A DNA stretch of 64,000 nucleotides, taken from NCBI RefSeq assembly GCF_009720365.1, contig NZ_ML769316.1:124001-188000 (forward strand). The letters run 5' to 3'. The notes under the pieces are model-generated. The model worked only from the letters and a program-made list of their open reading frames with translations, was not told the DNA's origin and ran no database searches. Position 1 is the first letter of the stretch; the number at the start of each line of letters is the position of its first letter. The translations under genes and the position numbers were made by a program. Positions 3,185-28,354 of this stretch are shown piece after piece. The DNA is from Catellatospora paridis. GTDB taxonomy: Bacteria > Actinomycetota > Actinomycetes > Mycobacteriales > Micromonosporaceae.

Positions 3185-3804
3185 GAGGGGCCTCCCGCGG
3201 GGTTGAGGAACAGGTGCACGTCGCGGTGCACCGGTACGTGCACGGCGCCGCGCGGGCGGGTCTGTTCCGGGTGGGCGGTTATCGCGGTGTCGTGGACCGT
3301 GCCGGTAACCGCGACCAGGTGCTGCAGGTAGGTCAGGCCGACCTCGGCGGCGGCGCCGGTCAGGGCGCTGACGTCGCTGGCGTGGCGGCGGGGCTCCACG
3401 ATCGTGGCGAGCACGCCGCCGGGGGCCAGCAGCACGCGGGCTGCGGCCAGCAGAGCGTCGGTGGGCAGGTCGGCGGGCCAGTACGCGGCCAGCAGCCCCC
3501 CGTCGCCCGCCCCCGGGGCTGCGGTGACCTTGCGCAGGCGGGCGGGGGTGAGTCGGCGGTGGGTGCAGCCGACGACCGCGGCGGCGGTGCCGAACGCGCG
3601 GGTGCTAGTGGTGTCGTAGACGATGGCGCCGGCGCCGGTGTAGGCGACGGTGAGCATCATGGCCAGCCGGGTCAGGCCGAGGCCGTCGGTGGTGTCGGCG
3701 GGGTCGGATGGGGTGCGCAGGATCGCCAGGGGCACGGCGGGTTCGCCGGGTACGAGGTCGAAGCCTGCGGTGCGCAGTCGGTCGGCGGTGGGTTTCGGGG
3801 TCAT
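3181..3804 (-). CDS. Probable catalytically inactive methyltransferase-fold partner
   Basis: A 207-residue protein encoded immediately upstream of, and coupled to, the active methyltransferase. It follows the same strand order with the key residues lost. Where motif I should be, the sequence reads GAIVYDTTSTRAFGTAA with no DPxxGxGT; where SPPY should be, it reads LLAAYWPAD; the later LLAPGGVLATIVEP strand is conserved. I infer a paralogue that lost catalysis and may act as a second subunit, for example in target recognition. This rests on reading motifs by eye; a structure prediction would settle it. The promoter should lie in the motif-rich gap 3805-4148. Confidence 0.55.
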   Translation of the reverse strand: MTPKPTADRLRTAGFDLVPGEPAVPLAILRTPSDPADTTDGLGLTRLAMMLTVAYTGAGAIVYDTTSTRAFGTAAAVVGCTHRRLTPARLRKVTAAPGAGDGGLLAAYWPADLPTDALLAAARVLLAPGGVLATIVEPRRHASDVSALTGAAAEVGLTYLQHLVAVTGTVHDTAITAHPEQTRPRGAVHVPVHRDVHLFLNPAGGPS

Positions 3805-3833: not shown

Positions 3834-4085
3834 TGGCGTGCTGACATCAGGTAATCGCGTCTGTCAGCGGAATCGAACGCGGCGATTTCCTGACAGCGGA
3901 GATCAACTTTCGTTCGCGCCGACGGCGCCGCTGACAGCGCCCGAATGCCATCCGCACCCCTGCATCAGCTCTGACCACCGGATATAGACCTGTCAGAGAT
4001 CGCGCGGTGGGAAGTGGGGAGATTGTCCCGCGCTGACCGCCGGCGAGTGCTCGGACGGCCGAGCTGGCCTGTCAGCGATTGTCAG
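3834..4085. promoter_or_regulatory. CTGTCAG cluster A, between methyltransferase pair and sigma-like gene
   Basis: This divergent intergenic region has exact CTGTCAG or its complement CTGACAG at 3861, 3890, 3931, 3990 and 4069, plus one-mismatch copies at 3841 and 4079. The segment 3850-3880 recurs in inverted orientation at 6459-6490. Probable roles are operator or promoter for the minus-strand methyltransferase pair and the plus-strand sigma-like gene. Confidence 0.6.
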
Positions 4086-4148
4086 CGTGGGCGGCTGCGC
4101 TGGTGGCACGTCGCGATCCGTGCGGCGTCCGACCCGCAGGAGACACCG

Positions 4149-4922
4149 ATGACCACCGAGACCGTCCTCACCCCGGCCGAGGATCGCCGTACCCGGACCC
4201 GTCCGCGGCCCGGATCCGCGCTGCGGGCGGCGCAGCGCGCGTTCCACCTTCTGGTCCAGCCGCCGGTGCCGCTGTCGCTGGACTGCCGCGACTTCGACCC
4301 CGAACTCGGCATTCCCGCGGCGATCGTGCCGTTGGACCAGCTGCAGCAGATACTGCTGTCGGCCGATACCTCCTACGCCGCCCGGGACGCGGTGTGGCGC
4401 AAGGTCTGCCGCGCCGCCCGCGAGTGGGGGCCGCAGTGGGTCGTGGCCGCCGCGGGTCTGGCACTGCCCGGACTCAAACGCGCCGCGCGTGAGCTGTATG
4501 AGGAGTACGGCGGCGACCGCGACGACATCGACTCGGAGGTCCTGACGGGGTTCCTCGAGGCCGTGCGCGGCGTCGACCTAGACAGCGACCGGCTGGCGGC
4601 GGCGCTGGTGTGGCGCGGCAGGCGGGCCGGTCACCGCCTCATCTGGGCCGACAAGCAGCACCGCCTGGCCCGGTCGACGACCCAGGAGTCGCAAGAGCCC
4701 CGGCCCTTGTACGGACACCCTGATCTGCTGCTCGGCCGTGCCGTGGCGCGTGGCGTCATCACCGTCAGCCAGGCCGTGCTCATCGCCGAGACCCGCCTGG
4801 AAGGCGCCTCCGTGGAGACGGTCGCCGACCGGTTCGGCCGGCCGGCGCAGGCGCTGCGCATGGTGCGGCGCCGAGCTGAACTGCGGATCGTCGCCGCGCT
4901 ACGGGACGGCACTCTCACCTGA
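4149..4922 (+). CDS. Sigma-factor-like helical DNA-binding protein
   Basis: I choose ATG 4149, a few bases after CAGGAGA; an upstream in-frame extension runs through the motif cluster and is unlikely to be coding. The product is about 257 residues and almost all helical. The C-terminal 60 residues (GVITVSQAVLIAETRLEG, then SVETVADRFGRPAQALRMVR) look like a region-4-type helix-turn-helix of sigma-70 proteins. The centre (EVLTGFLEAVRGVDLDSDRL) loosely resembles a region-2 helical bundle. I infer a sigma-like regulator of the element. The canonical -10-recognition residues cannot be confirmed by eye. Its upstream region is packed with CTGTCAG motifs, which makes it one candidate for their reader. 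Confidence 0.5.
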   Translation: MTTETVLTPAEDRRTRTRPRPGSALRAAQRAFHLLVQPPVPLSLDCRDFDPELGIPAAIVPLDQLQQILLSADTSYAARDAVWRKVCRAAREWGPQWVVAAAGLALPGLKRAARELYEEYGGDRDDIDSEVLTGFLEAVRGVDLDSDRLAAALVWRGRRAGHRLIWADKQHRLARSTTQESQEPRPLYGHPDLLLGRAVARGVITVSQAVLIAETRLEGASVETVADRFGRPAQALRMVRRRAELRIVAALRDGTLT

Positions 4923-5078
4923 GCCCCTCCCCCGGCACGACACGAGCTCTTGGTTCCCGCTGTTGATCGGCGAGGAAATAGGGGGCCGTCCGACTCCGCC
5001 ATTGAGACATAGCGTGAGCGCCGTGACCGTAGTCAATGGCCTTCACGGCCGCACGCACGTGAGGAACCCGACCGCCGA

Positions 5079-5111
5079 GAAGGCTCCCGGAAGCGAACCC
5101 CGGGGGCCTTC
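5079..5111. terminator. Hairpin after sigma-like gene
   Basis: Arms GAAGGCTCCCGG (5079-5090) and CCCGGGGGCCTTC (5099-5111) pair with one bulge. There is no T-run. Apart from this hairpin I see nothing in 4923-5238. Confidence 0.4.
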
Positions 5112-5238
5112 GCCTTGCTCCTGGCGAGCTACGGCACCCTGACGAACGGGGCGTCCGGCACCTCCAGCCAACCCCGGAAGTCCTTGCGCGCCCGCTCCAG
5201 GTCCGCGCCGAGCAGCGGTCGACGCGGCGGGAACGTAG

Positions 5239-5946
5239 TCACCGGGGCCGGTTAGGCCAGATAGGTCTCCAGCAGTCGGCCGGTGGCGCGGGGCGCAGGT
5301 TCTCCTGGTGGTCGAAGGTGGCCACGTAGATCACCAGCTTCCTAAGGATCAGCAGCGTCACGAGGGCGTGCTGCTCGACCTCGCCCTCGTCATACCCCAC
5401 GGCCTGCTGACTGTGGAAAACGTTGTCGATCGCTCGCTGTCCGATCGCCACCGTCGCGTTGGCCGGCGCTACCTTGCTGGTGAGCAGGTCACGCCGCATC
5501 TCCGGGGTGGTGACCGGCTCCCGGTTCCCGCGTTCCCAGTTCGACACCTCCAGCGTCCAGCTCACGAGCACCGCCCAGGTCGCAACCGCGCTCGCCTCCT
5601 CGGCGTTCAGGTCGACGCGGTGACCGGAGCCCACTGAGGCGGCCGCCACCAGGGACCTGATCGCGTTGCGGGAGGCCGCCTCGATCTCGTTCGTCCAGCC
5701 GCTGTTGCAGTCCCGGCAAACGGCCATGGCGACAATGTCGAGCAGCGGCCGGCTCCGATCGGTGCGCGGCTGATACTCCCTGACCTGGTACTGGTCGCCC
5801 GCGTACTCCGCGGTGTACCGGAGGGTGGTCCGGGACGGGTGGTCACCGAGAACGGGGTGCAGCGCCTGGCCGATCACGTGCGCCTTGGAGGAGCCGAACT
5901 GCCCGCAAAACTGACATACCCGCCGGTGCTGTGCTTTGGAGGACAC
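5239..5946 (-). CDS. HNH-like zinc-binding protein
   Basis: A 235-residue protein with two CxxC pairs: C11-x2-C14 (VCQFCG), H23 in SKAHVIG, and C77-x2-C80-N81 (CRDCNSGW). The spacing CxxC ... SKxHV ... CxxCN matches HNH-nuclease-like zinc folds, with His23 in the place of the first catalytic histidine. The C-terminal two thirds are helical and unrecognised. It starts at GTG 5946 after AGGAAG. Whether it cuts DNA is not shown, and no partner is adjacent. Upstream lies motif cluster B, whose inverted copy of the 3850 sequence points toward this gene. Confidence 0.55.
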   Translation of the reverse strand: MSSKAQHRRVCQFCGQFGSSKAHVIGQALHPVLGDHPSRTTLRYTAEYAGDQYQVREYQPRTDRSRPLLDIVAMAVCRDCNSGWTNEIEAASRNAIRSLVAAASVGSGHRVDLNAEEASAVATWAVLVSWTLEVSNWERGNREPVTTPEMRRDLLTSKVAPANATVAIGQRAIDNVFHSQQAVGYDEGEVEQHALVTLLILRKLVIYVATFDHQENLRPAPPADCWRPIWPNRPR

Positions 5947-6234
5947 CAGTTCTTCCTGCCCTGAAGAGATTTAAGGAGGTGAGTCTACCGTTCACACTGG
6001 GTGAGCAGCGACTCGATATCCACTGCGCAAAGTAATGGCCAACGGATAGGCAGGCGCCCGTCGCGCACTCCTCGTCGATCCCGTCCGAGATCACTGTTGC
6101 CACGGCCAGCCGGTACCTGGACGCTGATCGACTCGAACGGAGCTTGCGACCGGGTGCCGGCCACCATCACCATGGTCGCCTCCGCAGGGCAGGTCCCCTC
6201 GATCGTGTCCGCAGCCTCGCCCACCGCCGTGACG

Positions 6235-6490
6235 CTGTCAGCACTGTCGTGACGGGTCGGCGCTGACAGCAGATCCGCCGCACGCTGACAGCCGCGCACC
6301 GCTAGCTGTCAGAGCCCATAGGAACCGCGCGGATTTACCGGGCACTGGATCACTGTCCTACGCCTGCCAACGCCCCCGAGAGCTGCCCTGTCAGCGCTGC
6401 CCGCGGGTGCGCTGCGGCTGTCAGCGGCCACGCGCTGAGCCACTGTCAGCACGACACGGCGTTCGATTCCGCTGACAGCAGCTGATTACC
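6235..6490. promoter_or_regulatory. CTGTCAG cluster B, upstream of the secretion operon
   Basis: Eight exact CTGTCAG/CTGACAG copies start at 6235, 6263, 6285, 6306, 6388, 6418, 6443 and 6472. Neighbour spacings are 28, 22, 21, 82, 30, 25 and 29. The block 6459-6490 is a near-perfect inverted copy of 3850-3880. It lies between the divergent HNH-like gene and the type IV secretion operon and is the likely control region of both. Confidence 0.65.
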
Positions 6491-6783
6491 GGTTGCGTCA
6501 CCACCCTGCCCCATCGGCGGGACCGGTCGCGCAGTGCGGCAGGACAGCCCCTCTCAAGGTCACGCGGTTCGCCCGGCACTCCTGAACGGGCGTGCTGACA
6601 CGTGCCCCATCAGGTGACCAGCCAGGGAGGAGAGCCCTCACCGGCCGATCCGCCGACCGGGGGGGCTGACCTGCCGCACCTTCCACCAACTCGTAACGCC
6701 CTCCCCGGAGGCGAAGGTGCGAACGGCGCGCAAGCCGATGCCACCTGAGCCGCACCCCGGGGCCGGGCGGGGAAGGACCGGCA

Positions 6784-7203
6784 GTGTCTACCGCCTACCA
6801 GCTCACCGAACACCTTGCGGCCTCAACCGACGTACTAGCCGCCGTCAAACCACTCCCGGACATCATCGACGCGATTCAGACCTGGGTCATGAACCTGATC
6901 TTCGCGGTCGCGTCGGTGTTCGCGACCATCGGCGCGGCGTACTACACGATGGCCGGCGGCGACCCCGCGAAGATCGAGAAGAGCAAGGAGCACTTCAAGA
7001 GCGCACTGAAGGGCTACGCCCTGGCGCTGCTGACCCCCATCATCTTCGGGATCCTCAACAGCATCCTCGGGGTCGGCGCCGACGACAGCGACGGCGGCAG
7101 TACCGACAGGCCGAGCAACGGCATGAGCGCGGTCGTCGCGCTGCAGACCCACACCCCTGCCTCCGGCGCCGCCGCCGTGATGCCCGGGCCGATCGGGCGC
7201 TGA
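6784..7203 (+). CDS. Pilin-like small membrane protein of a type IV secretion system
   Basis: A 139-residue protein starting at GTG 6784 after a GGGGAAGGA site. Two hydrophobic helices, around residues 34-57 (LIFAVASVFATIGAAYYTM) and 78-98 (ALALLTPIIFGILNSILGV), are joined by a short charged loop (GDPAKIEKSKEHFKSA). Size, topology and first place in the operon fit VirB2/TrbC-type pilins or the T4SS-pilin family of actinobacteria. There is no clear signal-peptide cleavage site. It opens the conjugation operon, with one base before the next gene. Confidence 0.65.
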   Translation: MSTAYQLTEHLAASTDVLAAVKPLPDIIDAIQTWVMNLIFAVASVFATIGAAYYTMAGGDPAKIEKSKEHFKSALKGYALALLTPIIFGILNSILGVGADDSDGGSTDRPSNGMSAVVALQTHTPASGAAAVMPGPIGR

Positions 7204-7204
7204 C

Positions 7205-8182
7205 ATGGGCGCCGTACTGAACGCCGCCTTCGGCTGGCTCGTTGCCGCGCTGCTGACCTGCTGGGAGTTCGCGCTCGAACTGCTGCGCAGGTCGGCGTTC
7301 ACGATGCCCGACGTCACGCTGCTGCCGGCCGTGGAGGAGTTCTCCCGCAAGTGCCTGTGGATCGTCGACAGCGCCTACGTGCTGGCGATCCTGGCCTCCG
7401 CAGTGACGGTGATGACCTACGAGAGCTACCAGATCCGTTACGGGGTCAAGGAGCTCATGCCGCGGCTGCTGGTCGGACTGATGGCCGCGCACTGGTCGCT
7501 GCCGATGTGCCGACTGCTGCTGCAGGGCGCGAACTCGCTGACCATGGCCCTGGTAGACGCCAACCTCGACCCGTGGGCCGGGTGGGGCACCACCTACACC
7601 CGGATCAAGACCGACGTCGACGCCGGCAACATCTCGCTGCTGTCGGCGTTCCTGCTCATCGTCGTGATCGCCATGGCGGTGTGGATCTTCCTGCTGTGGG
7701 ACATCCGCATCGCGATCCTCATCGTGCTGTGCGGCCTCGCACCCCTGGCCATGGCCTGCTACGCGGTGCCGCAACTGGAGGGCGTGCCGCGGCTGTGGTG
7801 GCGCTCCACGTTCGGGGTGCTGGCAGTACAGGTCCTGCAAGGTGCCACGTTCACGCTCGGTGTCGCGCTGATCGTCAGCCCTCCCGACGACGTGAGCACC
7901 AGCGAGGCACCGATGCCGTTTCCGGACGGCGCCGAGGGGCACCTGCTGGCGTCGCTGGTCGTGCTGATGCTCACCGCGAAGATCCCCGCGCTGGTCGGCC
8001 GGTATGTGATGCAGCACCCCACCCGCAGCCTGCTCGGCTACATCAGCCAGGTCCTCATCGTGCAGCGGCTCACCCGCGCCAGCCGCGGCGGCCGCCGGCC
8101 GGTTGCGTCCGGCCGGCCCGCCCAGCCCCAGGGCCAGGCCCCACGGCCGGCGACGCCGGCCGAACCACCTGTCGTTCTCTGA
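7205..8182 (+). CDS. TrbL/VirB6-like polytopic channel protein
   Basis: A 325-residue integral membrane protein with about six hydrophobic segments, including residues 5-25, 55-75, 140-165 (LLSAFLLIVVIAMAVWIFLL), 170-190, 200-225 and 240-265. It ends in a Pro/Arg-rich cytoplasmic tail. Position between the pilin-like gene and the PrgI gene matches the inner-membrane channel (TrbL/VirB6 role) of Gram-positive type IV secretion operons. Sequence identity to those families is low by eye, so topology and context carry the call. Confidence 0.7.
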   Translation: MGAVLNAAFGWLVAALLTCWEFALELLRRSAFTMPDVTLLPAVEEFSRKCLWIVDSAYVLAILASAVTVMTYESYQIRYGVKELMPRLLVGLMAAHWSLPMCRLLLQGANSLTMALVDANLDPWAGWGTTYTRIKTDVDAGNISLLSAFLLIVVIAMAVWIFLLWDIRIAILIVLCGLAPLAMACYAVPQLEGVPRLWWRSTFGVLAVQVLQGATFTLGVALIVSPPDDVSTSEAPMPFPDGAEGHLLASLVVLMLTAKIPALVGRYVMQHPTRSLLGYISQVLIVQRLTRASRGGRRPVASGRPAQPQGQAPRPATPAEPPVVL

Positions 8183-8202
8183 CCCTGTTGGGAGTCATCG
8201 TC

Positions 8203-9090
8203 ATGTCCGATCACGGGCCCGGCGCGGTCATGCCCGCCGACATCGAAGCCCCCGACAAGATCGTCTGGGGCTTCACTTTCCGTCAGATCGCCGTCCTCGG
8301 CGCGACCCTGTCCACCTGCTACGGCCTGTGGCGCCTGCTGCACAACGTCGTACCCCTGCCGCTGCTGATCGTCGGGGCGGTCCCTCTCGCCGCACTGGCC
8401 TTCGGCCTCGGCTTCGGCCGCCGCGACGGCCTGCCGATGGACGCCTGGCTCGCCCACGGCGTCACGTTCAGGCTCAAGCCCCGCCGCCTGGCCACCAACA
8501 GGCCCGCGACAGGTCGCGGGCCGGCCAAGGCCCGGCCGGACGGGCTGCTGCGGTTACCCGCCACCGGCATCGACACCGACGGCGCCATCACCACGCCCAA
8601 GCACACCACGGTGCTGGTGGCCACCGGCACCGCCAACCTCGCCCTGCGTACCCCCAACGAGCAGGCCGGGTTGCTCGACGGGTTCGGCCGCTGGCTCAAC
8701 ACCCTGGCCACACCAGCGCAGGTCACGGTATCCACCCGGCCGATGGATTTGGTCGCCCACGCCGACGCCCTCGCCGTGCAGGCCGACGACCTGCCCTCCC
8801 CCGCGCTGCGCGCCGCTGCAGTCGAGCACGCCGCGTTCCTGCGCCGCCTCGACCAGGCGCGCCAGCCGCTACGGCGGCAGGTCCTGGTCGCGGTCACCGG
8901 CCGCGACGGCCTGTCAGCGGCCCGCACCGCCGCTGACAGCGCCCGCGCCCTGGCCGGTCTCGGTCTACCCGCCCAGGTCCTGACCGGTGACATCGCCGCC
9001 GCGGTGCTGGCCGCCGCGGCCGACCCCGGCTACCCGCCCGCATTCAGCCGCCGGGCACTGCCCGGCCAACCCATCCGGAGGAAGCCATGA
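8203..9090 (+). CDS. PrgI family type IV secretion protein
   Basis: I start at ATG 8203, 20 bases after the TrbL-like stop and after TTGGGAG; the much longer open frame upstream is the shadow of the channel gene. The product is 295 residues. IEAPDKIVWGFTFRQIAVLG near the start and two membrane helices by residue 75 are the PrgI signature (VirB3-like). A longer soluble C-terminal domain follows. It overlaps the VirB4 gene by four bases (ATGA). Two CTGTCAG-type sites 22 bp apart lie inside this gene at 8911 and 8933, the only paired ones in coding sequence. Confidence 0.75.
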   Translation: MSDHGPGAVMPADIEAPDKIVWGFTFRQIAVLGATLSTCYGLWRLLHNVVPLPLLIVGAVPLAALAFGLGFGRRDGLPMDAWLAHGVTFRLKPRRLATNRPATGRGPAKARPDGLLRLPATGIDTDGAITTPKHTTVLVATGTANLALRTPNEQAGLLDGFGRWLNTLATPAQVTVSTRPMDLVAHADALAVQADDLPSPALRAAAVEHAAFLRRLDQARQPLRRQVLVAVTGRDGLSAARTAADSARALAGLGLPAQVLTGDIAAAVLAAAADPGYPPAFSRRALPGQPIRRKP

Positions 9091-10943
9091 GCACCAAGAC
9101 CACCAAGACCACCATGACCGACGCCGGCACCATCACCGACGCTGCTGCGGACCTGGCCGGGCTCGGCCCGGCGGGAGCGCAGGTCAGTGCCTGGCACGTG
9201 CAGACCGACACCGGCTTCTCAGCCACCTACGCCGTGGTCGACTACCCCGCCGAAGTCGGCGCGGGATGGCTGACCGGCGTGCTGTCGCTACCGCTGCGCA
9301 TCGACGCCGCCGTGCACATCGAGCCCCTGGCCGGGCAGGCCGCCGCCGCGCTGCTGCGCCGCCAGCGCGCCCGCCTGGAGTCCACCCGCCGGCTCGACGC
9401 CGGCCGCGGCGCCCTGGACGACCCACGGGTCAACGCCGCCGCCGACGACGCCGCCGACCTCGCCGACCGCATCGGCCGCGGTGCCTCCCGGCTGTTCCGC
9501 GCCGGGGTGTACCTCACAGTCCACGCCCCCACCACCGCCGCCCTCGCCGACGCCGGAGCGCAGCTGTGCAGCGCGGCAGCGGCGACCCTGCTCGACTTGA
9601 AACCGGTCACGTTCCGTCACCTGCAGGGCCGCACCAGTACATTGCCGCTGGGCGTAGACGAGTTGCGGTTGCGGCGGGTGTTCGACACCGAAAGCCTTGC
9701 CGCGGCGTTCCCGTTCGCGTCCAACGACCTGCCCGCGCCGCTGCCTGGCCAGCCGCCGGCCAGCGGCGGGATCCTCTACGGCACCACCACGGGCGGGACC
9801 GGGGTCGTGTGGTGGGACCGCTGGTCCTGCGACAACCACAACTCCGTCATCATCGCCCGATCCGGTGCCGGCAAGTCCTACCTGATCAAGCTGGAGATTC
9901 TGCGCAACCTGTACCAGGGCGTGCGGATCGCGGTCATCGACCCCGAGCACGAGTACCAGGCCCTCGCCGCGCACGTGGATGGCAAGGTCGTCGCGCTCGG
10001 CGACCCGAAGGTCAAGGTGAACCCGCTGCAACTGCCCGCGGGGGATCGCCGACTGGATCTACTGTCACGCCGCGCGCTGTTCCTGCACACCCTGGTCAGT
10101 CTCATGCTCGCCGCCGTTGACGAGCAGCACGGCACCGGTCGCGCGGGCATGGACGCGGCCGGGCGTGCGGCGCTGGACCGGGCGATCCTCGCCACTTACG
10201 CCGACGCCGGGATCACCGCCGACCCGTCCACCTGGCAGCGGCCTGCGCCGCTGCTGGCCGACTTGGCCGCGCAGCTGGACACCGACCCGGCCGCGACCGA
10301 CCTGTCGACGCGGCTCGCGCCGTGGGTGTCGGGCAACTGGTCGCACCTGTTCGACGCACCCGACACCACCGACACCGACAGCCACCTGGTCGTGTGGTCG
10401 CTACGGCAGCTGCCCGACGAACTGCGGACCGTCGGCACGCTCCTGGCCCTGGACGCGATCTGGCGCGGCGTCGACCAGCCCACCGATCCCGGCCAATCCG
10501 ACGGCGGTAGCGGTCAGCGCACGCTCGTCGTCGTCGACGAGGCGTGGCTGCTGATGCGCACCGGCGAGGGCGCGAAGTTCCTGCTCAAGATGGCCAAAGC
10601 CGCCCGCAAGCGCCACGCCGGCCTCGCGGTGGTCACCCAGGACGCCGCCGACCTGCTCACCTCACCCCTGGGCACCGCCGTCATCTCCAACGCCGCCACC
10701 CAGATCCTCATGCGTCAAGCACCGCAAGCCATCGACGCCGTGAAGACGGCATTCGGGCTCACCGCCGGCGAGGCACGCAGCCTGGCCACCCTCGGCCGTG
10801 GACAAGCGCTGCTGGTCAGTGGTGCCAGCAGGGTCGCCTTCGATGTGGCTTCGTCCCCGGCCGAGCACGCGATCGCCCGCAGCGACGCACGCCCCACCGC
10901 CGCCAAGCCTGCCGCCGATCTCGGCGATGGCGACGACCTGTGA
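9087..10943 (+). CDS. VirB4-like conjugation ATPase
   Basis: A 618-residue cytoplasmic ATPase that energises pilus assembly and substrate transfer in type IV secretion. Walker A is ARSGAGKSYLIK around residues 257-266, followed by IAVIDPEHEYQ; Walker B is TLVVVDEAWLLM around residues 478-489; LAVVTQDAADLL and a later Gln-rich segment fit the RecA-like core of VirB4/TraC proteins. The N-terminal 230 residues match the usual VirB4 N-domain. It is coupled to the PrgI gene by an ATGA overlap and followed after 18 bases by the coupling protein. Length and motifs are complete, so it should be functional. Confidence 0.9.
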   Translation: MSTKTTKTTMTDAGTITDAAADLAGLGPAGAQVSAWHVQTDTGFSATYAVVDYPAEVGAGWLTGVLSLPLRIDAAVHIEPLAGQAAAALLRRQRARLESTRRLDAGRGALDDPRVNAAADDAADLADRIGRGASRLFRAGVYLTVHAPTTAALADAGAQLCSAAAATLLDLKPVTFRHLQGRTSTLPLGVDELRLRRVFDTESLAAAFPFASNDLPAPLPGQPPASGGILYGTTTGGTGVVWWDRWSCDNHNSVIIARSGAGKSYLIKLEILRNLYQGVRIAVIDPEHEYQALAAHVDGKVVALGDPKVKVNPLQLPAGDRRLDLLSRRALFLHTLVSLMLAAVDEQHGTGRAGMDAAGRAALDRAILATYADAGITADPSTWQRPAPLLADLAAQLDTDPAATDLSTRLAPWVSGNWSHLFDAPDTTDTDSHLVVWSLRQLPDELRTVGTLLALDAIWRGVDQPTDPGQSDGGSGQRTLVVVDEAWLLMRTGEGAKFLLKMAKAARKRHAGLAVVTQDAADLLTSPLGTAVISNAATQILMRQAPQAIDAVKTAFGLTAGEARSLATLGRGQALLVSGASRVAFDVASSPAEHAIARSDARPTAAKPAADLGDGDDL

Positions 10944-10961
10944 AAGGACGGTACCTCCACC

Positions 10962-13475
10962 ATGGCAATCAGCCCGCCCATCACCAGCGATTCCCTGCTC
11001 GAAATCACCCGGTGGGTGCTGGACCGGCCCTGGCTGGCCGCGGTCGCCGGCCTCGGCGTATTGGCGGCGCTCGGCGGCCAGCAACTGCTGGCCGACTGGC
11101 GCCACCGGCGCATGACCGACGGCGCGGGCCTGCTGACCATCGCCCCGCCGCCGCAGGTCGACCAGGGCACCGCCGCCGACCTGTGGCGCACCCTGGCCGG
11201 GGTTCTCACACCGTCGACCTGGCGTCGACTGCTCTACGGCATCCCGCACGTCGTGTTCGAATACTCCTGGACCGGCCGGCAGCTGCAGATCCAGCTGTGG
11301 GTACCCGGCAGCGTCCCCCGCGGCGCGGCCATCGCCGCGATCCGCTCAGCATGGCCCAGCGCGAGCATCACCGAAGCCGACGCTGTCCCGCCGCTGCCCG
11401 TCGAGGGCACCCTGGCCACCGGCGGGCGGCTGTATACGCGGCTACCTGACGTACTGCCGCTGCGCACCGACCACGACAACGACCCCCTGCGGCCGCTACT
11501 GGCTGCAGGTGCCGACACGCGCAACGGCGAGCACACCCTGGTGCAGATCCACGCCCGCCCCGCACGGGCGTCGCGGCTGCGCCGCGCCAGAGCCGTCGCC
11601 GCGCGGATGCGCGAAGGCGGCAGCGTCTCAGGCGGTGGGCCGGACCTAGTGGGGATAGCGGTGGCGCCGCTGCTGTGGCTGGTCGAGCTGTTCCTGCCCG
11701 GACCGTCGACCCGCTCGGCGACCGCCCGCGGGACGGCCGTGCGGCGGGACCCCGTCGCCGAGCGCGACATCCGCATGGTCGTCGACAAGGCCCTGTCCGG
11801 GGCCGTGTTCGAGGTCGACGCCCGCTACATCGTCGCCACCGCCGCGCCCCGCAGCCAGGACCCGCAGGTCGCGCAGCGGCTGAACAACCGGCTGCGCGGC
11901 CTCGCGCACGCGGTCGCCTCAGCGTTCGCAATCCACGCCGGGCGTAACAGCCTGCAGCGCCGCAAGATGCCCCACCCCCTGGCCGTGGCCGCCGGCCGGC
12001 GGATGAGCCACGGGTTCCTCGCCGGCGTCGACGAGCTCGCCGCGCTCGCGGCCCTGCCACAGGACCTGGCCGTGCCCGGCCTCGACCGGGCCCGAGCCAA
12101 GGCTGTTCCGGCACCGGTAACGATCCCCGCAGGCGGCGGAGGGACCAAGCCGCTGGGCATCGCGCAGGTCGGCGGCCACAGGCTGGCCATGCCCGTCGCG
12201 TCTGCCAGCGAGCACATCCACCTGATCGGCAAGACCGGGTCGGGCAAGTCGACGCTGATCACGCACATGGTCCTCGACGACGTCGCCGCCAGCCGCGGCG
12301 CGGTCGTCATCGACCCGAAGGGGGACCTGGTCAACGACATCCTGGCCCGGCTGCCCTACGAGGTCGCCGACCGGGTCGTGCTCATCGACCCGGAACAGGA
12401 GAACCAGCCGGCCATCAACCCGCTGGAAGGAGACGACAGAGAGCTGGCGGTCGATAACATCGTCGGGATCTTCGCCAAGATCTTCGCCCGGTTCTGGGGG
12501 CCGCGTATCGACGACGTGCTGCGGGTGTCGCTGCTGACGCTGCTCACCAAGGCCAACGCGACGCTGTCGCTGGTTCCGCCGCTGCTCAACAGCGACCAGT
12601 TCCGGGCCGAGTACACCGTCGACCTCGACGACCCGTCAGGTCTGCACGGGTTCTGGGCCTGGTACGACAGCATGAACGCCGCCGCCCGCGCCCAGATCAT
12701 CGGCCCGGTCCTGGCCCGGCTGCGGGCGTTCCTGCTGCGCGACTTCGTGCGGCGCACCATCGGCCAGCCGAAGTCGACGTTCGACCTCGGTGACGTGCTC
12801 GACGGCGGACTGCTGCTCGTGCGGCTGCCCAAAGGTGTGCTCGGCGACGAGACGTGCCGGGTGCTGGGAAGCATCATCCTGGCCAAGACCTGGCAGGCCG
12901 CCACCGCACGCTCCGCGCTCCCGGAGGCCAAACGCCGCCCGGCCATGCTGTACGTCGACGAAGCGCAGAACTTCCTCAATCTGCCCTCTCCGGTGGGCGA
13001 CATGCTCGCCGAAGCGCGCGGCTACCGCCTCGGGATGCTGCTGGCCCACCAGAACCTCGCCCAGCTGCCCAAAGACGTCGCCGAAGCCGTCAGCGCCAAC
13101 GCCCGCAACAAGATCTACTTCAACGTCGACCCGGGCGATGCCAAGGACCTGGCCAAGCACGTCGCACCGGAGGTCGACGAGCACGACCTGGCCAAGCTCG
13201 ACGCCCACACCGCCGTCGGCAGGATCGTGATCAACCACCGGGAACTGCCGGCGTTCACGTTCACGACCCTGCCACCAGTGGCGGCCGCGCAGTCGACCCT
13301 CGCCCTGCGGCAGCGGCTGTCGGCCGCGCACCCGGCACAGGCGCAGTCAGCGGCCGAGCGTAAGGCCCGCAACGACATGAGGGCCGAACGGGAGCGCCGC
13401 GCCGCGCGGTCCAGGGCCCAGTCGGGCGCCGGGCACCAGACCGACGACAGCGTCCAGCAGGCCGGCAAGCAGTAG
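10962..13475 (+). CDS. VirD4/TraD-type coupling ATPase
   Basis: An 837-residue protein that would bring DNA or protein substrates to the secretion channel. One N-terminal membrane segment lies at residues 25-45 (WLAAVAGLGVLAAL). Walker A is GKTGSGKSTL near 423-432, preceded by HIHLI and followed by AVVIDPKGDLV; Walker B is PAMLYVDEAQNF near 661-672; LLAHQNLAQLP is the sensor-like strand. These are diagnostic of TraG/VirD4/TraD proteins. The C-terminus is a basic, charged tail. It ends the contiguous operon begun at 6784; a short gap with three CTGACAG sites follows. Confidence 0.9.
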   Translation: MAISPPITSDSLLEITRWVLDRPWLAAVAGLGVLAALGGQQLLADWRHRRMTDGAGLLTIAPPPQVDQGTAADLWRTLAGVLTPSTWRRLLYGIPHVVFEYSWTGRQLQIQLWVPGSVPRGAAIAAIRSAWPSASITEADAVPPLPVEGTLATGGRLYTRLPDVLPLRTDHDNDPLRPLLAAGADTRNGEHTLVQIHARPARASRLRRARAVAARMREGGSVSGGGPDLVGIAVAPLLWLVELFLPGPSTRSATARGTAVRRDPVAERDIRMVVDKALSGAVFEVDARYIVATAAPRSQDPQVAQRLNNRLRGLAHAVASAFAIHAGRNSLQRRKMPHPLAVAAGRRMSHGFLAGVDELAALAALPQDLAVPGLDRARAKAVPAPVTIPAGGGGTKPLGIAQVGGHRLAMPVASASEHIHLIGKTGSGKSTLITHMVLDDVAASRGAVVIDPKGDLVNDILARLPYEVADRVVLIDPEQENQPAINPLEGDDRELAVDNIVGIFAKIFARFWGPRIDDVLRVSLLTLLTKANATLSLVPPLLNSDQFRAEYTVDLDDPSGLHGFWAWYDSMNAAARAQIIGPVLARLRAFLLRDFVRRTIGQPKSTFDLGDVLDGGLLLVRLPKGVLGDETCRVLGSIILAKTWQAATARSALPEAKRRPAMLYVDEAQNFLNLPSPVGDMLAEARGYRLGMLLAHQNLAQLPKDVAEAVSANARNKIYFNVDPGDAKDLAKHVAPEVDEHDLAKLDAHTAVGRIVINHRELPAFTFTTLPPVAAAQSTLALRQRLSAAHPAQAQSAAERKARNDMRAERERRAARSRAQSGAGHQTDDSVQQAGKQ

Positions 13476-13579
13476 CGGACAGTGACCGGGCATCGACGAG
13501 CGGCGTGTCGCTGGGCCGTCAGGTCGCTGTCGGGCTGGGCGTCAGGCTGCCGTCGGCCAAGATCGGCCGGCGGTGGCCG

Positions 13580-13617
13580 CTGACAGGCCCACGAGCTGCG
13601 CTGACAGGCCCTGACAG
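13580..13617. promoter_or_regulatory. CTGACAG cluster C, before the replication-relaxation gene
   Basis: CTGACAG occurs at 13580, 13601 and 13611, all in one orientation, with spacings of 21 and 10 bp. A further exact copy (14506) overlaps the stop codon of the downstream gene, and TTGACAG lies at 14546. Confidence 0.55.
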
Positions 13618-13678
13618 CCCGCGGATCGAAACCCCACTCCCTACCGGGAGTTCTCCCTGAGGGTAAAGGACCACTGAC

Positions 13679-14509
13679 ATGACTACATCGTCTTCCTCAC
13701 CCATCGCACACTCCGCCTACCTGGTCGCACGCAGCCACCTCACCCCTCGGGACCTGATCTTGCTGGATTGGCTGGCCCATCACCGTGCCCTGACCACCCC
13801 GCACGTCACCGCTGCCCTGTTCGGGTCCGAACGCCGCGCCCAGGCTCGCTTGGCCGTGCTGCGGCGGCTGCGTTTCATCGACTCGACCATGCTGCGGCCG
13901 AGCCTGGCCCGCAGCGCCCCGTACCTGCACACCCTCGGCCCATTCGGACACCAGTGGGCCGCCGCCCGCCGCGACGAACCGCCGCCCACCGCCCGACAGT
14001 GGCGCCGACAAGCCCACGCCATCATCGACAGCCCGTTCCTGGGCCACCAGTTGGGCGTCAACTCGTTCTTCATCGCCCTGGCCGCCCACAGCCGCACCCA
14101 CCGGCACGCCCGGCTGCGCCACTGGCTGAACCAGGCCCAGGCCGCGCAGCTCACCTCCGGGGTGCGTCCCGACGGGTTCGGCCGCTGGCACGTCGGCGAC
14201 CGTGACATCGGGTTCTTCTTCGAGTACGACACCGGTGAGGAGGAGCTGCACCGCCTGGTCACCAAGGTCCGCACCTACGCCTTGGCCGTCGACCTCGTCG
14301 ACACGGCACGCTGGCCGGTGGTGTTCTGGCTGCACTCCCGCCGCCGGGAGGCGAACCTGCACCAGCGTCTGACCGACGAGGGTGTCAGTCACCCGGTGGC
14401 CACCGGAGTGCACGCGGACAACCCTGCAAATTCGTGCCTCTTCCTCGTCGGCAGCGATCCAGCCCGGCGAATCCCGCTCATCGCTCTGGCCCGGCCGGAT
14501 GGGCGCTGA
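13679..14509 (+). CDS. Replication-relaxation family protein
   Basis: A 276-residue protein. The N-terminal winged helix (LTPRDLILLDWLAHHRALTT, then ERRAQARLAVLRRLRFID) and the later LGVNSFFIALAAHS and RPDGFGRW ... FFFEYDTGEEELHRL segments match the Replic_Relax family of actinobacterial plasmids and integrative elements. Members are associated with replication or relaxation of mobile-element DNA. The R-P-D-G ... E-x-D-T-G pattern resembles a nuclease-type acidic core, but this is inference. No classical MOB relaxase is visible in the window, so this protein is the best candidate for processing the transfer or replication origin. AAAGGA precedes ATG 13679. Confidence 0.75.
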   Translation: MTTSSSSPIAHSAYLVARSHLTPRDLILLDWLAHHRALTTPHVTAALFGSERRAQARLAVLRRLRFIDSTMLRPSLARSAPYLHTLGPFGHQWAAARRDEPPPTARQWRRQAHAIIDSPFLGHQLGVNSFFIALAAHSRTHRHARLRHWLNQAQAAQLTSGVRPDGFGRWHVGDRDIGFFFEYDTGEEELHRLVTKVRTYALAVDLVDTARWPVVFWLHSRRREANLHQRLTDEGVSHPVATGVHADNPANSCLFLVGSDPARRIPLIALARPDGR

Positions 14510-14572
14510 CAGGCCATCGCCAGCTTTGGCCTTGGCAAGGATTAATTGACAGCTGCCCATAGGCTTTCGCGC

Positions 14573-15205
14573 ATGGACGGTGCTGCGACGTGGCTGAGTG
14601 CGATTGCGACCGCCTGCGGCTCCCTCGGCACGATGGGCGCATTGCTACTGACCTACCTGCTGCTGCGCAGGGAAGCCGAACGCGACAGAGTGAACGAGGT
14701 CCGGCGCTCGTCGGAGGAGGCATCCGCGAGGCGGGCCCAGGCAGCGAAGGTATCGGCTTGGGCAAGGACTGAGCCGAAAACGGTCGACGCCGTGCCGACA
14801 GTCAGGATCCGTTACGGCGCCTATGTGCACAACGGCTCAGAATCACCGGTGTTCGACCTGACCGTCTTCTGGCTGCGGCAGAGGACGAGCGATGCCCGAG
14901 ACGCGAGCTGGGAGAACGTGCGCATCATGCGGGCCATATTTCCCGTATTCCCGCCAACCGCTGAACCGCGATTCATCCCCTGCATGAGCGAGGGGCGAAA
15001 GCTCGAACGAGCGGAGGCGCTGCCATCGGGCGAGGAGCCCACGGCCCTGGCAACGGCCATCACGTTCAGAGACTCAAACGGAGTGAACTGGCTTCGGCGG
15101 GTCGATGGCCGACTCGTTGAAGAACCGGCGGACGACGAGCCATTAGCGTCCGATCAGTGGATGCCCGTGGATTTAGATCCATATCCGATGATCAACTATC
15201 CATAG
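14573..15205 (+). CDS. Single-pass membrane protein of unknown function
   Basis: About 210 residues. One hydrophobic helix at residues 3-24 (LGTMGALLLTYLLL) is followed by a charged coiled segment (REAERDRVNEVRRSSEEASA) and a beta-rich domain with VRIRYGAYVHNGSESPVFDL. The plan matches the proteins at 582 and 27547. No ribosome-binding site is seen; TAGGCT at 14560-14565, seven bases before the ATG, fits a -10 box of a leaderless transcript. Function unknown. Confidence 0.6.
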   Translation: MDGAATWLSAIATACGSLGTMGALLLTYLLLRREAERDRVNEVRRSSEEASARRAQAAKVSAWARTEPKTVDAVPTVRIRYGAYVHNGSESPVFDLTVFWLRQRTSDARDASWENVRIMRAIFPVFPPTAEPRFIPCMSEGRKLERAEALPSGEEPTALATAITFRDSNGVNWLRRVDGRLVEEPADDEPLASDQWMPVDLDPYPMINYP

Positions 15206-15418
15206 TAGCCGTCGTACCTCGGGCGCCTAGCGGGCCGGGTTGTATGCGCTCATCGACACACACCACCTCCCGCGGCGCTCCGGAGGAGTGCTAACTCCGC
15301 TGGCTCAGTGTGAGCCAGCATTGACCGACGATCCCGTGATCGCCGACCCGACCCGTCAGGCTCTGGCAGGTGACCCCCCACCGGCAGCCACCGTTTGGCC
15401 CGCGAGCGTCGGCGCTGA

Positions 15419-16165
15419 TCAACCGGGAAGGTGTCGGACGCTCATCCATATGAGAATGTCGTAGAGACGCAGATGCGAAAGGCTGACGTCGCCGGGACCG
15501 CAGGCGAGCTGGTCGAACGCGGCGGCGAGGTCACGGAACTGCTCGGCGTGCGCATGGATCTCATCATGGATCTGCTGCCACGCCGTACAGCCCCGTGACG
15601 TGGCCGCCGTGTCGATCGGTGCGATAGTCCAGTTGTCGAGCAGCGGCACGAGCCGTGGCCGCTTGTGGTGCAGCACCTTGTGGACGCGAGCCACTTTTAG
15701 TCCGGGAGTGGCCGTGCCTTGCCGCCACGCCTCATGCAGATGCCAGCCTGCGGTGCCCTGCGGCGGGCTGTCACCCAGTTCGTCTCGCGGCAGAAGCAGG
15801 AAGTCCGGCTGTATGCGGTGTGCGGCTTCCAGGTGCTCGGCGGCTCGGTCGGCGAAGCTGCGAAGCCGTACGAGCGTGCGCACGTTCAGGTCAGCGTTGA
15901 GCCCGGCGCTCACCAGTAGGTCCAGGTCAGTGAATGCAGGGCCGGGCGAGCTGGGTACGCAGTCATAGGTGCGGTAGCCGTAACGGGGCACAGGATGCGG
16001 CGTGAACGCGTACGGGAAGCGTGGGCCCGGGTCGAGCGTCTCGGTCGCGAAAGCGTAGGCGCTGACCGTCTCCAGTGCCTGGGTCACCGAATATGTGACC
16101 CTGCCGCCCGCCAGGTTGAACTCCAGAAGCCACCTCCACCGAGGGCACGTCGCGCAGACCCTCAT
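15419..16165 (-). CDS. DUF6308-like protein of unknown function
   Basis: A 248-residue soluble protein read on the minus strand. Conserved-looking segments are RVTYSVTQALETVSAYAF, FTDLDLLVSAGLNADL, and KVLHHKRPRLVPLLDNW. This order resembles DUF6308 family proteins as I remember them. No catalytic signature is visible. The first 15 residues (MRVCATCPRW) contain a CxxC pair but may not be translated, since no ribosome-binding site precedes the ATG; a GTG at the RVTYSV segment is an alternative start. Confidence 0.5.
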   Translation of the reverse strand: MRVCATCPRWRWLLEFNLAGGRVTYSVTQALETVSAYAFATETLDPGPRFPYAFTPHPVPRYGYRTYDCVPSSPGPAFTDLDLLVSAGLNADLNVRTLVRLRSFADRAAEHLEAAHRIQPDFLLLPRDELGDSPPQGTAGWHLHEAWRQGTATPGLKVARVHKVLHHKRPRLVPLLDNWTIAPIDTAATSRGCTAWQQIHDEIHAHAEQFRDLAAAFDQLACGPGDVSLSHLRLYDILIWMSVRHLPG

Positions 16166-16218
16166 CGTAAGGCGAGCACTCAGTGTGCCAAGCTGCCCTG
16201 TCGACGGCCGGACAAGCG

Positions 16219-16319
16219 CTGTCAGCGCGTGCGATTCCTCTGTCAGCGATGTGCTCCGCGCTGTCAGCGGCCGGCCCCGCCGCCGGTCCGCTGTCAGCCG
16301 TCGCGGCTGAGCCTGTCAG
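16219..16319. promoter_or_regulatory. CTGTCAG cluster D, five copies in one orientation
   Basis: Exact CTGTCAG at 16219, 16240, 16261, 16291 and 16313, all in the plus orientation, with spacings of 21, 21, 30 and 22 bp, i.e. two or three DNA turns. The cluster lies between two minus-strand genes and touches the stop codon of the HTH-like gene at 16316. Confidence 0.65.
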
Positions 16320-16795
16320 CGCCGCTTGCCGCGGTCGCCGACTGCACGCCTGCCTGTCGCCGCAGCGCCGGTAGGCACCCCCTGGCGGTAGGGGGCTGTG
16401 AAATCGGAGTCCTGGGCTTGTTCCCGGACCTGGGCCAGGTCAGGCCAGCGCCGCTGCGCTCCCTGACGGGTCATCTTTACCGCCTGGCCCAGGTCCGGGT
16501 ACTCCGCACCCGCACGAGCCGAGGCATGGGCGAGCGCATCGACGAACCTCTCGCAGCTGCGGCGCAGCACGTCATAAGACGTGAGCATCCCGAGCCTGCG
16601 GCCGAGTTCGCCGTCGTGGGCAAGCCTGTCCGTACTGGTCAGCGTCTCTGTCATCGCCTCTGCCATCACGGTCAGCATGTCCTCGATCCGGAAGCACTCC
16701 TCCTCGGTGAATGGTTCTTCCACCTCACTCTCCTCGAATCCGACAATGGTGAAGATCCGACCGTCCCGCGCGCCACAGTCCGATGTCAAGACCAT
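16316..16795 (-). CDS. Small HTH-like protein beside the iteron array
   Basis: A 159-residue, mostly helical protein. The N-terminal half has an acidic patch (EESEVEEPFTEEECFRIEDM). Around residues 100-120, YPDLGQAVKMTRQGAQRRWP resembles the helix-turn-helix of small regulators of the GMSRQAARQRW type. The C-terminus is basic (TGRRAVGDRGKRR). It is transcribed away from five 31-32 bp direct repeats (16857-17005) that lie just upstream of its ATG, so the repeats would overlap its promoter. A repeat-binding autoregulator, partition protein or replication initiator accessory is a reasonable guess. The HTH call is by eye only. Confidence 0.5.
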   Translation of the reverse strand: MVLTSDCGARDGRIFTIVGFEESEVEEPFTEEECFRIEDMLTVMAEAMTETLTSTDRLAHDGELGRRLGMLTSYDVLRRSCERFVDALAHASARAGAEYPDLGQAVKMTRQGAQRRWPDLAQVREQAQDSDFTAPYRQGVPTGAAATGRRAVGDRGKRR

Positions 16796-16856
16796 TCCCC
16801 ATCAGACATGTCCAACTGCCGATCGAAGTCTCGGCACGCGCACGGGGGTTGAGGGG

Positions 16857-17005
16857 TGCAACACATGTTGACGCAAGATCAACCGGCTGCAACAGCCATT
16901 GACGCAAGATCACCTCCTTGCAACAAGCGTTGACGCAAGATCGCCCGACCTGCAACAGATGTTGACGCAAGATCGACTGCTTGCAACAGGTGTTGACGCA
17001 AGATC
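16857..17005. repeat. Iteron-like array of five direct repeats
   Basis: Each unit has TGCAACA, four variable bases, then TTGACGCAAGATC (one unit varies only in the spacer). TGCAACA starts at 16857, 16888, 16919, 16951 and 16982; TTGACGCAAGATC starts at 16868, 16899, 16930, 16962 and 16993. The period is 31, 31, 32 and 31 bp, about three helical turns. Within a unit TTGC-AACA and TGTT-(GAC)-GCAA form an imperfect dyad. Conserved blocks with helical phasing are typical of iterons at plasmid origins or of partition sites. Between units the linkers differ, so the array is maintained by selection at the conserved bases rather than being a fresh duplication. Confidence 0.8.
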
Positions 17006-17336
17006 CGCGACGTGTCCGCGCAGCCCTCCAGCACGCCGACCTGCCGCATGCCTCAGATGTCTGTCACAGCCAGGCGCGCCGCGCTCGCGGCCAACGAAGG
17101 CGTCCTGTCGACACATTTGCAGCCAGTAGCGCGGGCGGTAGGCGCCGTGCGGCTGCCGACAACCGCCACGCGCTCATTGCGCAGATGACGCCCAGCCTGC
17201 GGCCGACCGCGCCAGTCGAGCTCCCGGGCGTCGGCCGCGGCCATAGACGCGAGCCAGTTCTGCTGCCCCCTCTCTCGGCGTTCACAGGTGCTCGCACTCA
17301 GAGGCGCGGGGTGCTGGCCAGTGGCCGAGGCAAGCC

Positions 17337-17431
17337 CTGTCAGCGAAAAGTCGCCGACTTTCTGCTGACAGAAATCGCGGTTTCACTGACAGGGCAGCTC
17401 ACACCCCATCCGGCCGATCTTGGGCTGTCAG
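17337..17431. promoter_or_regulatory. CTGTCAG cluster E with a 35 bp dyad
   Basis: Sites at 17337, 17365, 17386 and 17425. The first two are head-to-head and bracket the palindrome AAAGTCGCCGACTTT, so 17337-17371 forms one extended dyad. It lies upstream of the gene at 17632 and downstream of the iteron array. I see no gene in 17006-17631. Confidence 0.6.
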
Positions 17432-17631: not shown

Positions 17632-18345
17632 ATGACCGCAAAGCCAGGAACCACCGAGTTCACCTTCCGCACCTTCGTGGTGTGTGCGTCTCCGCGACCC
17701 GTCGCGGACTGGGAGGAGCTCGTAGAGCCCGCGCTCGAGCGCAACCCGAACGCCACGCCGAGCGTGCAGTTCCCGGTGAAGGCCGTCCGCCGTCTGGCAT
17801 GGCTGACCCGCCTGTTCGACCACGGTCTGGTCGGAGCCGAACGTGGCCGGATCCACGTGATCCGCGCCGCAGGAGGCCGCCGTTCCCGCCTGGACCTCAA
17901 GGCCGCACAGCGCAACGCCTTCACCCAGGCATCCCTTCGTCACGCCCGCTGGAGCGATGCCGTCGCCGGCACCGCGACCGCGCAGGGCTGGAGCCACTTC
18001 CAGAACCGCGCGAAGACCAGCAACGGCAAGCTGACGGAGCAGGCCGCCTGGGACATGTTTCTGGCTCAGCCGCGCATCGCGGCGATGATGACCGTCAGCA
18101 ACGGCCTGTCGGCCAACGACACCTTCGACCCGATGGATGTCGAAGCGTTCCAGGCCGGAAGCATCGCCTACTCCACCATGTGCCAGTACCGGGCACTCGC
18201 CGGCGACGTCGTGATCACCGAGTCCGGCCTGCGGCTGGAGCCCGCAGACGACAGCTACGCCGCCCGCATCGCCTTCCTGAAGAAGGCAGCCACCCATGTG
18301 GCCAAGCTCCCGCGGCACTGCGTGCTCGTCGCCATGACCATCTGA
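17632..18345 (+). CDS. Unknown soluble protein
   Basis: I choose ATG 17632 because GAAGGAG lies eight bases upstream; the longer open frame reaching back into the iterons has no other support. The product is 237 residues, without membrane helices. Segments are FRTFVVCASPRPVADWEELV, SVQFPVKAVRRLAWLTRL, and TQASLRHARWSDAVAG followed by WSHFQNRAKTSNGKLTEQAA. It is rich in Arg and Lys in the middle. I do not recognise it. Its place next to the iteron and CTGTCAG clusters makes a role in element maintenance or its control possible, but nothing in the sequence demonstrates this. Confidence 0.6.
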   Translation: MTAKPGTTEFTFRTFVVCASPRPVADWEELVEPALERNPNATPSVQFPVKAVRRLAWLTRLFDHGLVGAERGRIHVIRAAGGRRSRLDLKAAQRNAFTQASLRHARWSDAVAGTATAQGWSHFQNRAKTSNGKLTEQAAWDMFLAQPRIAAMMTVSNGLSANDTFDPMDVEAFQAGSIAYSTMCQYRALAGDVVITESGLRLEPADDSYAARIAFLKKAATHVAKLPRHCVLVAMTI

Positions 18346-28350: not shown

Positions 28351-28354
28351 ACAG
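28331..28354. promoter_or_regulatory. CTGTCAG pair F, before the AAA-VWA operon
   Basis: CTGTCAG at 28331 and CTGACAG at 28348 face each other in a 24-base inverted pair, 130 bases before the AAA ATPase start. It is the only paired occurrence of the motif to the right of 17.5 kb. Confidence 0.45.

Follow-up and report, generated by a model that had tools for sequence, protein, structure and literature searches.

Arrays of the heptamer CTGTCAG punctuate a mobile element of the actinobacterium Catellatospora paridis, and this word probably serves as operator for a DNA-binding protein that the element itself encodes. The protein is most likely the product of the gene starting at position 4149 (hereafter 4149), which would regulate its own synthesis and set expression across the element. 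We analysed a 64-kb window (contig NZ_ML769316.1, positions 124,001 to 188,000; coordinates below count from its first base), in which the element appears to be an integrated conjugative element of the type IV secretion system (T4SS) type. Computation established the motif, its element-wide placement, its replacement by other words in related lineages, a partly conserved geometry and a fold prediction for the 4149 product. That product would bind the arrays at its own promoter, and so be autoregulated, and also those before the T4SS operon, the Replic_Relax (replication-relaxation) gene, gene 17632 and neighbouring genes; with transfer, replication and accessory genes under its control, expression of the whole element would be set. 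In related lineages a different word replaces CTGTCAG across these places, apparently together with the 4149 protein.

Enrichment and placement of the word

CTGTCAG, counted on both strands, occurs 34 times in the window, against 9.47 expected from dinucleotide shuffles (standard deviation 3.04), and none of 100 shuffles reached 34. An excess over chance, put at about eight expected copies, had been claimed in the earlier note and is confirmed by this count. Of the 28 copies in the first 20 kb, 24 are confined to non-coding DNA (binomial P 2e-9), which by our own gene finder makes up 6,118 of the 20,000 bases; the proposed intergenic preference is thus borne out. The host genome (8.97 Mb) is not enriched: CTGTCAG is present 364 times and the reversed word 459 times. 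The rate in the first 20 kb is 38 times that of the rest of the genome. Close pairs, taken as 3-33 bases between copies with the order CTGACAG then CTGTCAG not covered, gave 24 rows genome-wide, all within the window except C1:1055314, which gives two rows; the reversed-word control returned 2 and 2.

Most copies in the window carry a 3′ CG extension, as CTGTCAGCG. Five non-coding segments in which about 22 copies had been counted by eye contain 5, 8, 3, 5 and 4, or 25 in total (clusters A to E, Table 1). Beyond those noted before, copies are found at 8911/8933 inside the PrgI gene and at 14506 at the end of the Replic_Relax gene, together with a TTGTCAG at 4079. The additional pair reported at 28.33 kb is present (28331/28348). 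It lies inside the long open reading frame (ORF) of an AAA_5 gene, yet about 140-150 bp before the start preferred by the gene finder (28485), and it lacks the CG extension, but pairs of such form are rare in the host genome.

Recurrence in related elements

Of the family's 200 genomes, 106 have a 4149 homologue, and the relatives belong mostly to Micromonosporaceae. The element is probably mainly chromosomal, because a plasmid collection held a single 4149 match (30% identical) and several relatives' loci lie in single contigs of 6-9 Mb. When 29 relatives' loci (L006-L034) were inspected as stretches of 3.7 kb, 26 had at least one copy of CTGTCAG and 20 had three or more. Twenty of the 29 were extended to about 20 kb, mostly picked since the shorter stretches showed copies, and the nine left out comprised seven with 0-1 copies and two with 4-5. 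Four of these nine were examined later (L207, L210, L211 and L216): two carry CCAACAG, one a weak TGTCAGG and one another word.

The 20 extended loci, whose 4149 homologues are about 42-46% identical, hold 5-19 copies each, amounting to 189 in 91,868 non-coding bases versus 28 in 304,465 coding bases. Recurrent clusters occupy the region beyond the methyltransferase gene, the gap separating the methyltransferase/3181 side from 4149, the DNA preceding the T4SS operon, and the stretches from the gene of the VirD4/TrwB-like coupling protein (TrwB) to Replic_Relax and from Replic_Relax to 17632. This recurrence is partial, not each cluster being found in each locus. The 3′ flank of the word is CG in the window, mostly G-T-C in the relatives and C-Y-C in two loci.

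The spacing of the copies was compared in the same relatives. Of the 18 spacings in the window, 8 measure 21-22 bp and 6 measure 28-30 bp, with a Rayleigh R of 0.55 at a period of 10.5 bp and 0.62 at 10 bp. The 82 spacings of up to 45 bp in the 20 relatives give R values of 0.29-0.31 at all eight periods from 9.5 to 14, with no preference for the helix turn. The earlier suggestion of helical spacing thus holds weakly within the window and fails as a general rule, and we rejected 10.5-bp phasing as such a rule. The near-palindromic CTGWCAG may be read as a palindrome, but its 3′ extension is one-sided and lineage-dependent.

Other words in more divergent lineages

In 40 loci hand-picked from less similar 4149 matches (33-42% identical), other words are enriched at the corresponding places in most, not all, cases: TGTTCAA, TGTTGGG/CCCAACA, CTGTGAG, TGTCAGA and TGGCAGA. 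A further 80 loci, centred on the VirB4-like ATPase (VirB4) and spanning Streptomyces, Actinokineospora, Prauserella, Pseudonocardia and Kineosporia, added, among others, TTGTCAGA, CTGTCCA, CCGTTAGAG and TGATGGA; 61 of them have a detected 4149 homologue, and two were too short to examine.

For the upstream and geometry counts, we assigned motif classes from the enriched words, leaving loci without a clear class uncounted, and upstream stretches were non-coding and up to 600 bp long. Among distinct loci, 70 of 72 have the lineage's own word before the 4149 homologue (reversed word, 10), 52 of 69 before the 6784 homologue that opens the T4SS operon (12), 33 of 57 before Replic_Relax (3) and all 35 before the 17632 homologue (4). 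With duplicates the figures become 82/84, 64/81, 36/66 and 37/37. Words of unrelated classes occupy the same stretches in 5-10% of locus-word pairs. Some elements occur twice (e.g. L036/L128, L044/L102 and L072/L135); both copies enter the orientation and composite-site counts given below, and the own-word, reversed-word and 19-bp-block counts use distinct upstream sequences.

Incompatibility as the driver of word diversification is not supported as a strict rule. Words may differ between elements of one genome (L039/L057, L046/L090, L049/L065 and L054/L067), and others of the same genome share a word (L043/L204, L205/L206 and L209/L210).

Some loci have features of their own. The 4149 homologue is reversed in orientation relative to the T4SS genes in L078, L080, L086, L120 and L164, where GATGTCA/ATGTCAC forms are enriched alongside CTGTGAG forms, though weakly in L078 and L120. 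The Streptomyces locus L160 has very strong other non-coding repeats, with 47 copies of GAGCGGA and 23 of GGAGGTA. A DUF932 gene lies beyond the methyltransferase, near motif clusters, in L045 (12636-13607) and L048 (12190-13158).

Position of the copies relative to gene starts

At the 4149 promoter the nearest copy is sense in 44 loci and antisense in 38. For the T4SS operon, 54 of 64 loci, counting duplicates, have the nearest copy in antisense, and in 24 of those 54 it is found at -205 to -221; where the copy nearest to Replic_Relax is sense, 18 of 25 fall at -99 to -111. At the 4149 promoter of 31 of 72 distinct loci, belonging to six classes, an [AG]AT[CG][GA] block stands exactly 19 bp after the start of the core hexamer. 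The block was chosen after inspection of the promoter sequences; the background is a mean of 2.8 per distance, and the reversed core gives 1. The composite CTGWCAG-N4-ATCGAA occurs twice in the window (3861 and 6462) and at least once in 25 of 35 loci of the CTGTCAG class, window and duplicates included. In 16 Replic_Relax promoters of this class, A is found at +24 (81%) and C at +25 (88%) from the start of the word.

Copies at several promoter regions with recurring offsets make a transfer or segregation recognition sequence, the other possibility raised in the earlier note, less likely. In its specific form, this proposal would have the repeats act as a partition site (centromere) or transfer origin, with TrwB or another coupling or segregation protein as their reader. 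TrwB identity does predict the motif well across lineages, but the clusters stand at five places and not at one locus, the promoter offsets recur, TrwB has no match in the genome of one word-bearing element (L077, below), and it is not significant within a clade (see below). We regard this proposal as the least credible of those considered.

Predicted fold of the 4149 product

The 4149 product has no match in Pfam, NCBIfam or PHROG. Its AlphaFold2 model has a predicted local distance difference test score of 92 and a predicted template modelling score of 0.64, and the best 50 of 335 matches to the model in the PDB are all, by entry title, sigma factors or sigma-containing complexes. The product is thus predicted to have a sigma-factor-like fold.

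The prediction also admits that 4149 is a true element-encoded sigma factor, with CTGTCAG serving as a -35-like element and host RNA polymerase being redirected. The fold, the covariation of both putative recognition helices with the word (see below), the fixed 19-bp offset before 4149 and the A and C preferred at the Replic_Relax promoters would all fit such a role. Up to eight copies are present per region, in both orientations, the nearest copy is almost evenly sense and antisense at 4149 and mostly antisense before the T4SS operon, 4149 lacks a Pfam match, and the gap between hexamer and block is about 13 bp, which is short for a -35/-10 pair. We consider a true sigma factor unlikely. Arrays that run in both orientations would fit repression or architectural control better than plain sigma function, and on this ground we favour repression with negative feedback by the 4149 product over activation or true sigma function.

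Which protein follows the word

A strongly enriched word was present in 89 of 122 loci, which were dereplicated to 55 representatives. In these, 15-residue windows of 4149 were compared with motif similarity, with the rest of the 4149 protein removed, and the values peak near residues 148-171 and 223-243 (partial rho 0.55 each). Provided that the fold is sigma-like, we take the parts under these peaks, helix 149-175 and the helix-turn-helix (HTH), to be the DNA-reading ones. It seems to us an even bet that these elements form a large actinobacterial family of mobile elements with a regulator derived from a sigma factor, in which each lineage has a private word of 7-10 bp that is repeated across the element's promoters and changes together with the two DNA-reading helices.

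A narrower comparison was possible within the L103 clade, where loci differ in their share of CTGTGAG versus CTGTCAG. This C/G switch follows the 4149 helix 148-172 (rho 0.41, p 0.001, n = 18), followed by the rest of 4149 (0.27, p 0.0025, n = 18) and the HTH (0.17, p 0.03); looser dereplication (n = 23) gives 0.39, 0.28 and 0.25, respectively. The base-fraction metric was chosen after the residue table, which makes the comparison exploratory. VirB4, TrwB, PrgI, 7205, 6784, the methyltransferase and 3181 all miss p 0.05 in this clade, with rho values of 0.00 for VirB4, 0.12 for TrwB (p 0.095; 0.11 and p 0.058 in the looser set) and 0.07 for the methyltransferase (n = 14).

The last value bears on the proposal that the element methyltransferase (2306) recognises the word, which would mark or switch the element's promoters. 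The enzyme has a match within the examined stretch in all 20 relatives' loci, usually near the 4149 homologue. It does not track the C/G switch, no homologue lies in the examined stretch of 13 of the 55 word-enriched representatives, although locus ends may cut genes off, and L151 and L154 have the enzyme with no detected 4149 homologue and no clear word. This role for the enzyme is very improbable.

Replic_Relax (13679), or another replication or relaxase factor, might instead read the motif in replication, nicking or the repression of transfer. The motif adjoins its gene, which is also present in L077, and Replic_Relax follows the C/G switch too (rho 0.32, p 0.005, n = 15; 0.18, p 0.015, n = 20). 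The own word is, however, upstream of this gene in 33 of 57 distinct loci compared with 70 of 72 for 4149, and across lineages its whole-protein correlation (0.43) is the lowest among the seven core proteins. We hold it to be a doubtful candidate, less probable than the sigma-factor role.

A number of results, including this response of Replic_Relax to the switch, weigh against 4149 as the reader. Across lineages, in the 47 of 55 representatives that hold all core genes and were used for the protein comparison and nearest-neighbour tests, the motif correlates better with whole-protein identity of TrwB (rho 0.76) than with that of 4149 (0.61), and nearest-neighbour prediction neither separates the core proteins nor singles out 4149. 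Windows of TrwB, VirB4 and PrgI reach partial values similar to those of 4149 (VirB4 as reference), and a 7-mer-vector test within the L103 clade was significant for no protein. In the C/G comparison, the rest of 4149 follows the switch more closely than the HTH does, the other proteins were represented by 14-17 loci in the n = 18 set, and several tests were tried with uncorrected p values. At the 4149 promoter, 41 of 72 distinct loci, including that of the window itself, have no block at 19 bp. L104, L119, L122 and L148 carry the motif with no 4149 homologue in the stretch examined, although one may lie outside, and several of the 61 VirB4-centred loci that do have 4149, especially outside Micromonosporaceae, show no clear word. 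The structural match is also weak, with a Foldseek E value of 2.5e-3 or worse and template modelling scores of 0.20-0.29 on the query side and no higher than 0.43 on the target side. Neither library scans nor hhalign found a recognisable Sigma70_r2/r4 sequence profile: in a profile comparison with 15 host sigma factors, the 4149 HTH aligned to sigma region 4 with E 0.0028 and a probability of 11% (VirB4 control, E 0.23).

The cross-lineage tests are dominated by common descent, and we set aside the broad Mantel and nearest-neighbour tests as not decisive for naming the reader. The within-clade switch and the L077 element lean towards 4149. The comparative evidence favours the earlier proposal that one DNA-binding protein coordinates the element, and 4149 is the best candidate among the three proteins then named (the products of 4149, 16316 and 13679); the 16316 product has no match among those listed for the 20 relatives' loci.

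An element without detected VirB4 or TrwB

L077 (1-14001) is an integrated element with an integrase, an HTH_17 xis-like gene (match below the Pfam cut-off), two Replic_Relax genes, pPIWI-RE genes and a 4149 homologue. VirB4 and TrwB queries had no match in its genome, which is 99% complete; the TrwB query does find matches in two control genomes, and the VirB4 query was run without such a control. CTGTGAG clusters flank the 4149 homologue, and further copies precede the xis-like gene by 299 and 354 bp. L077 is possibly a mobilizable element that shares the regulatory module, and it carries a defence system (pPIWI-RE) on an integrase-bearing element without detected VirB4 or TrwB.

Features of the element and adjoining repeats

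Pfam matches in the element are to a DNA methyltransferase, PrgI, the VirB4-like ATPase, the VirD4/TrwB-like coupling protein, Replic_Relax and an M23 peptidase. The coordinates of genes and sites are collected in Table 1.

Table 1. Sites and genes of the element, in window coordinates
Feature	Position	Strand	Description
Cluster A	3861..4085		5 exact copies (3861+, 3890-, 3931-, 3990+, 4069+) and a TTGTCAG at 4079; in the gap of the divergent gene pair 3181/4149
Composite CTGTCAG-N4-ATCGAA	3861..3877	+	
Cluster B	6235..6478		8 copies, 312-549 bp upstream of gene 6784, which opens the T4SS operon
Composite CTGTCAG-N4-ATCGAA	6462..6478	-	Before the T4SS operon
Inverted pair	8911..8939		In 3′ part of PrgI gene, 154-176 bp before VirB4 start
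Cluster C	13580..13617	-	3 copies, 68-99 bp upstream of Replic_Relax start
Single copy	14506..14512	-	At Replic_Relax stop, overlapping coding sequence
Cluster D	16219..16319	+	5 same-strand copies, spacings 21, 21, 30, 22; upstream of DUF6308 gene (minus strand); last copy overlaps 3′ end of 16316 ORF
Cluster E	17337..17431		4 copies, 207-295 bp upstream of gene 17632
Inverted pair	28331..28354		Candidate further member of the motif set
DNA methyltransferase	2306..3184	-	N6_N4_Mtase/UPF0020 match; frequent neighbour; alternative candidate reader
Gene 3181	3181..3804	-	Methyltransferase partner gene, no family
Gene 4149	4149..4922	+	Candidate regulator, 257 residues, predicted sigma-factor-like fold; helices 124-141 and 149-175, HTH 222-229/233-252
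Gene 6784	6784..7203	+	First T4SS operon gene, conserved; no family match (scanned as ORF 6717-7220)
PrgI-family T4SS protein	8230..9090	+	
VirB4-like ATPase	9087..10943	+	
VirD4/TrwB-like coupling protein	10962..13475	+	Alternative candidate reader
Replic_Relax protein	13679..14509	+	Alternative candidate reader
Gene 17632	17632..18345	+	Conserved, downstream of cluster E; no match in NCBIfam or PHROG

Other repeats adjoin some of these genes. Upstream of gene 17632, a 31-bp tandem array of iterons at 16867-17005 consists of five copies of GACGCAAGATC, with the consensus GTTGACGCAAGATC...GCAACA. The word CAAGATC also occurs before Replic_Relax in the window (13558) and is enriched in several loci of the TGTTCAA lineage. 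Directly 5′ of the Replic_Relax start lies a short inverted repeat, ACTCCCTACCGGGAGT (13636-13652), a candidate nick site or leader hairpin whose folding energy in the window is unremarkable (z 0.23); many of the relatives listed have repeats resembling it (GACTCCCTnnnGGGA..., GACACCCTCC...GGAGGG) ahead of Replic_Relax.

Implications and comparison with known systems

Operator control by the 4149 product, if true, would account for the regulation of a widespread group of actinobacterial conjugative elements of the T4SS type. The operator word varies by lineage while the module stays, which would provide many natural recognition switches, a natural series of changes in protein-DNA recognition within a sigma-fold protein. 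This variation would make it possible to test directly which residues of a sigma-like protein read which bases. As a marker, the word can also help to locate such elements, those of the L077 type among them.

With the sigma-70 family the 4149 product shares a predicted fold resemblance, but it has no Pfam sigma domain match and its sites form arrays in both orientations. Replication iterons are tandem repeats at a single origin, whereas CTGTCAG occurs in mixed orientations and spacings at several loci. In actinobacterial conjugation, the Streptomyces clt/TRS repeats are short repeated words with element-specific recognition, read by TraB, an FtsK-type translocase, at one locus. The present element differs in having five clusters and a T4SS of the VirB4/VirD4(TrwB) type. 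The clt repeats figure in the reference list of PMC9513070. Among the matches listed in a search of the open-licence literature, we found no description of this word or of a sigma-like regulator of such elements.

The functionally nearest known arrangements appear to be the KorA/KorB system of plasmid RK2 and the repressor network of R388. In RK2, the short operators OA and OB, distributed across the plasmid, silence replication and transfer genes, and OA adjoins core promoters (PMC11790492). The likeness lies in short operators at several operons of one mobile element; here, in contrast, the operators would be multi-copy, lineage-specific arrays, and 4149 is no recognisable ParB/KorB relative because it has no Pfam match. 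In R388, the plasmid-encoded repressors StbA, ArdK and KorA govern several operons as well as their own promoters (PMC3937220). Compared by arrangement, that network resembles the one proposed here in its element-encoded control of several operons and of its own promoter, and differs in that here one word would serve several modules.

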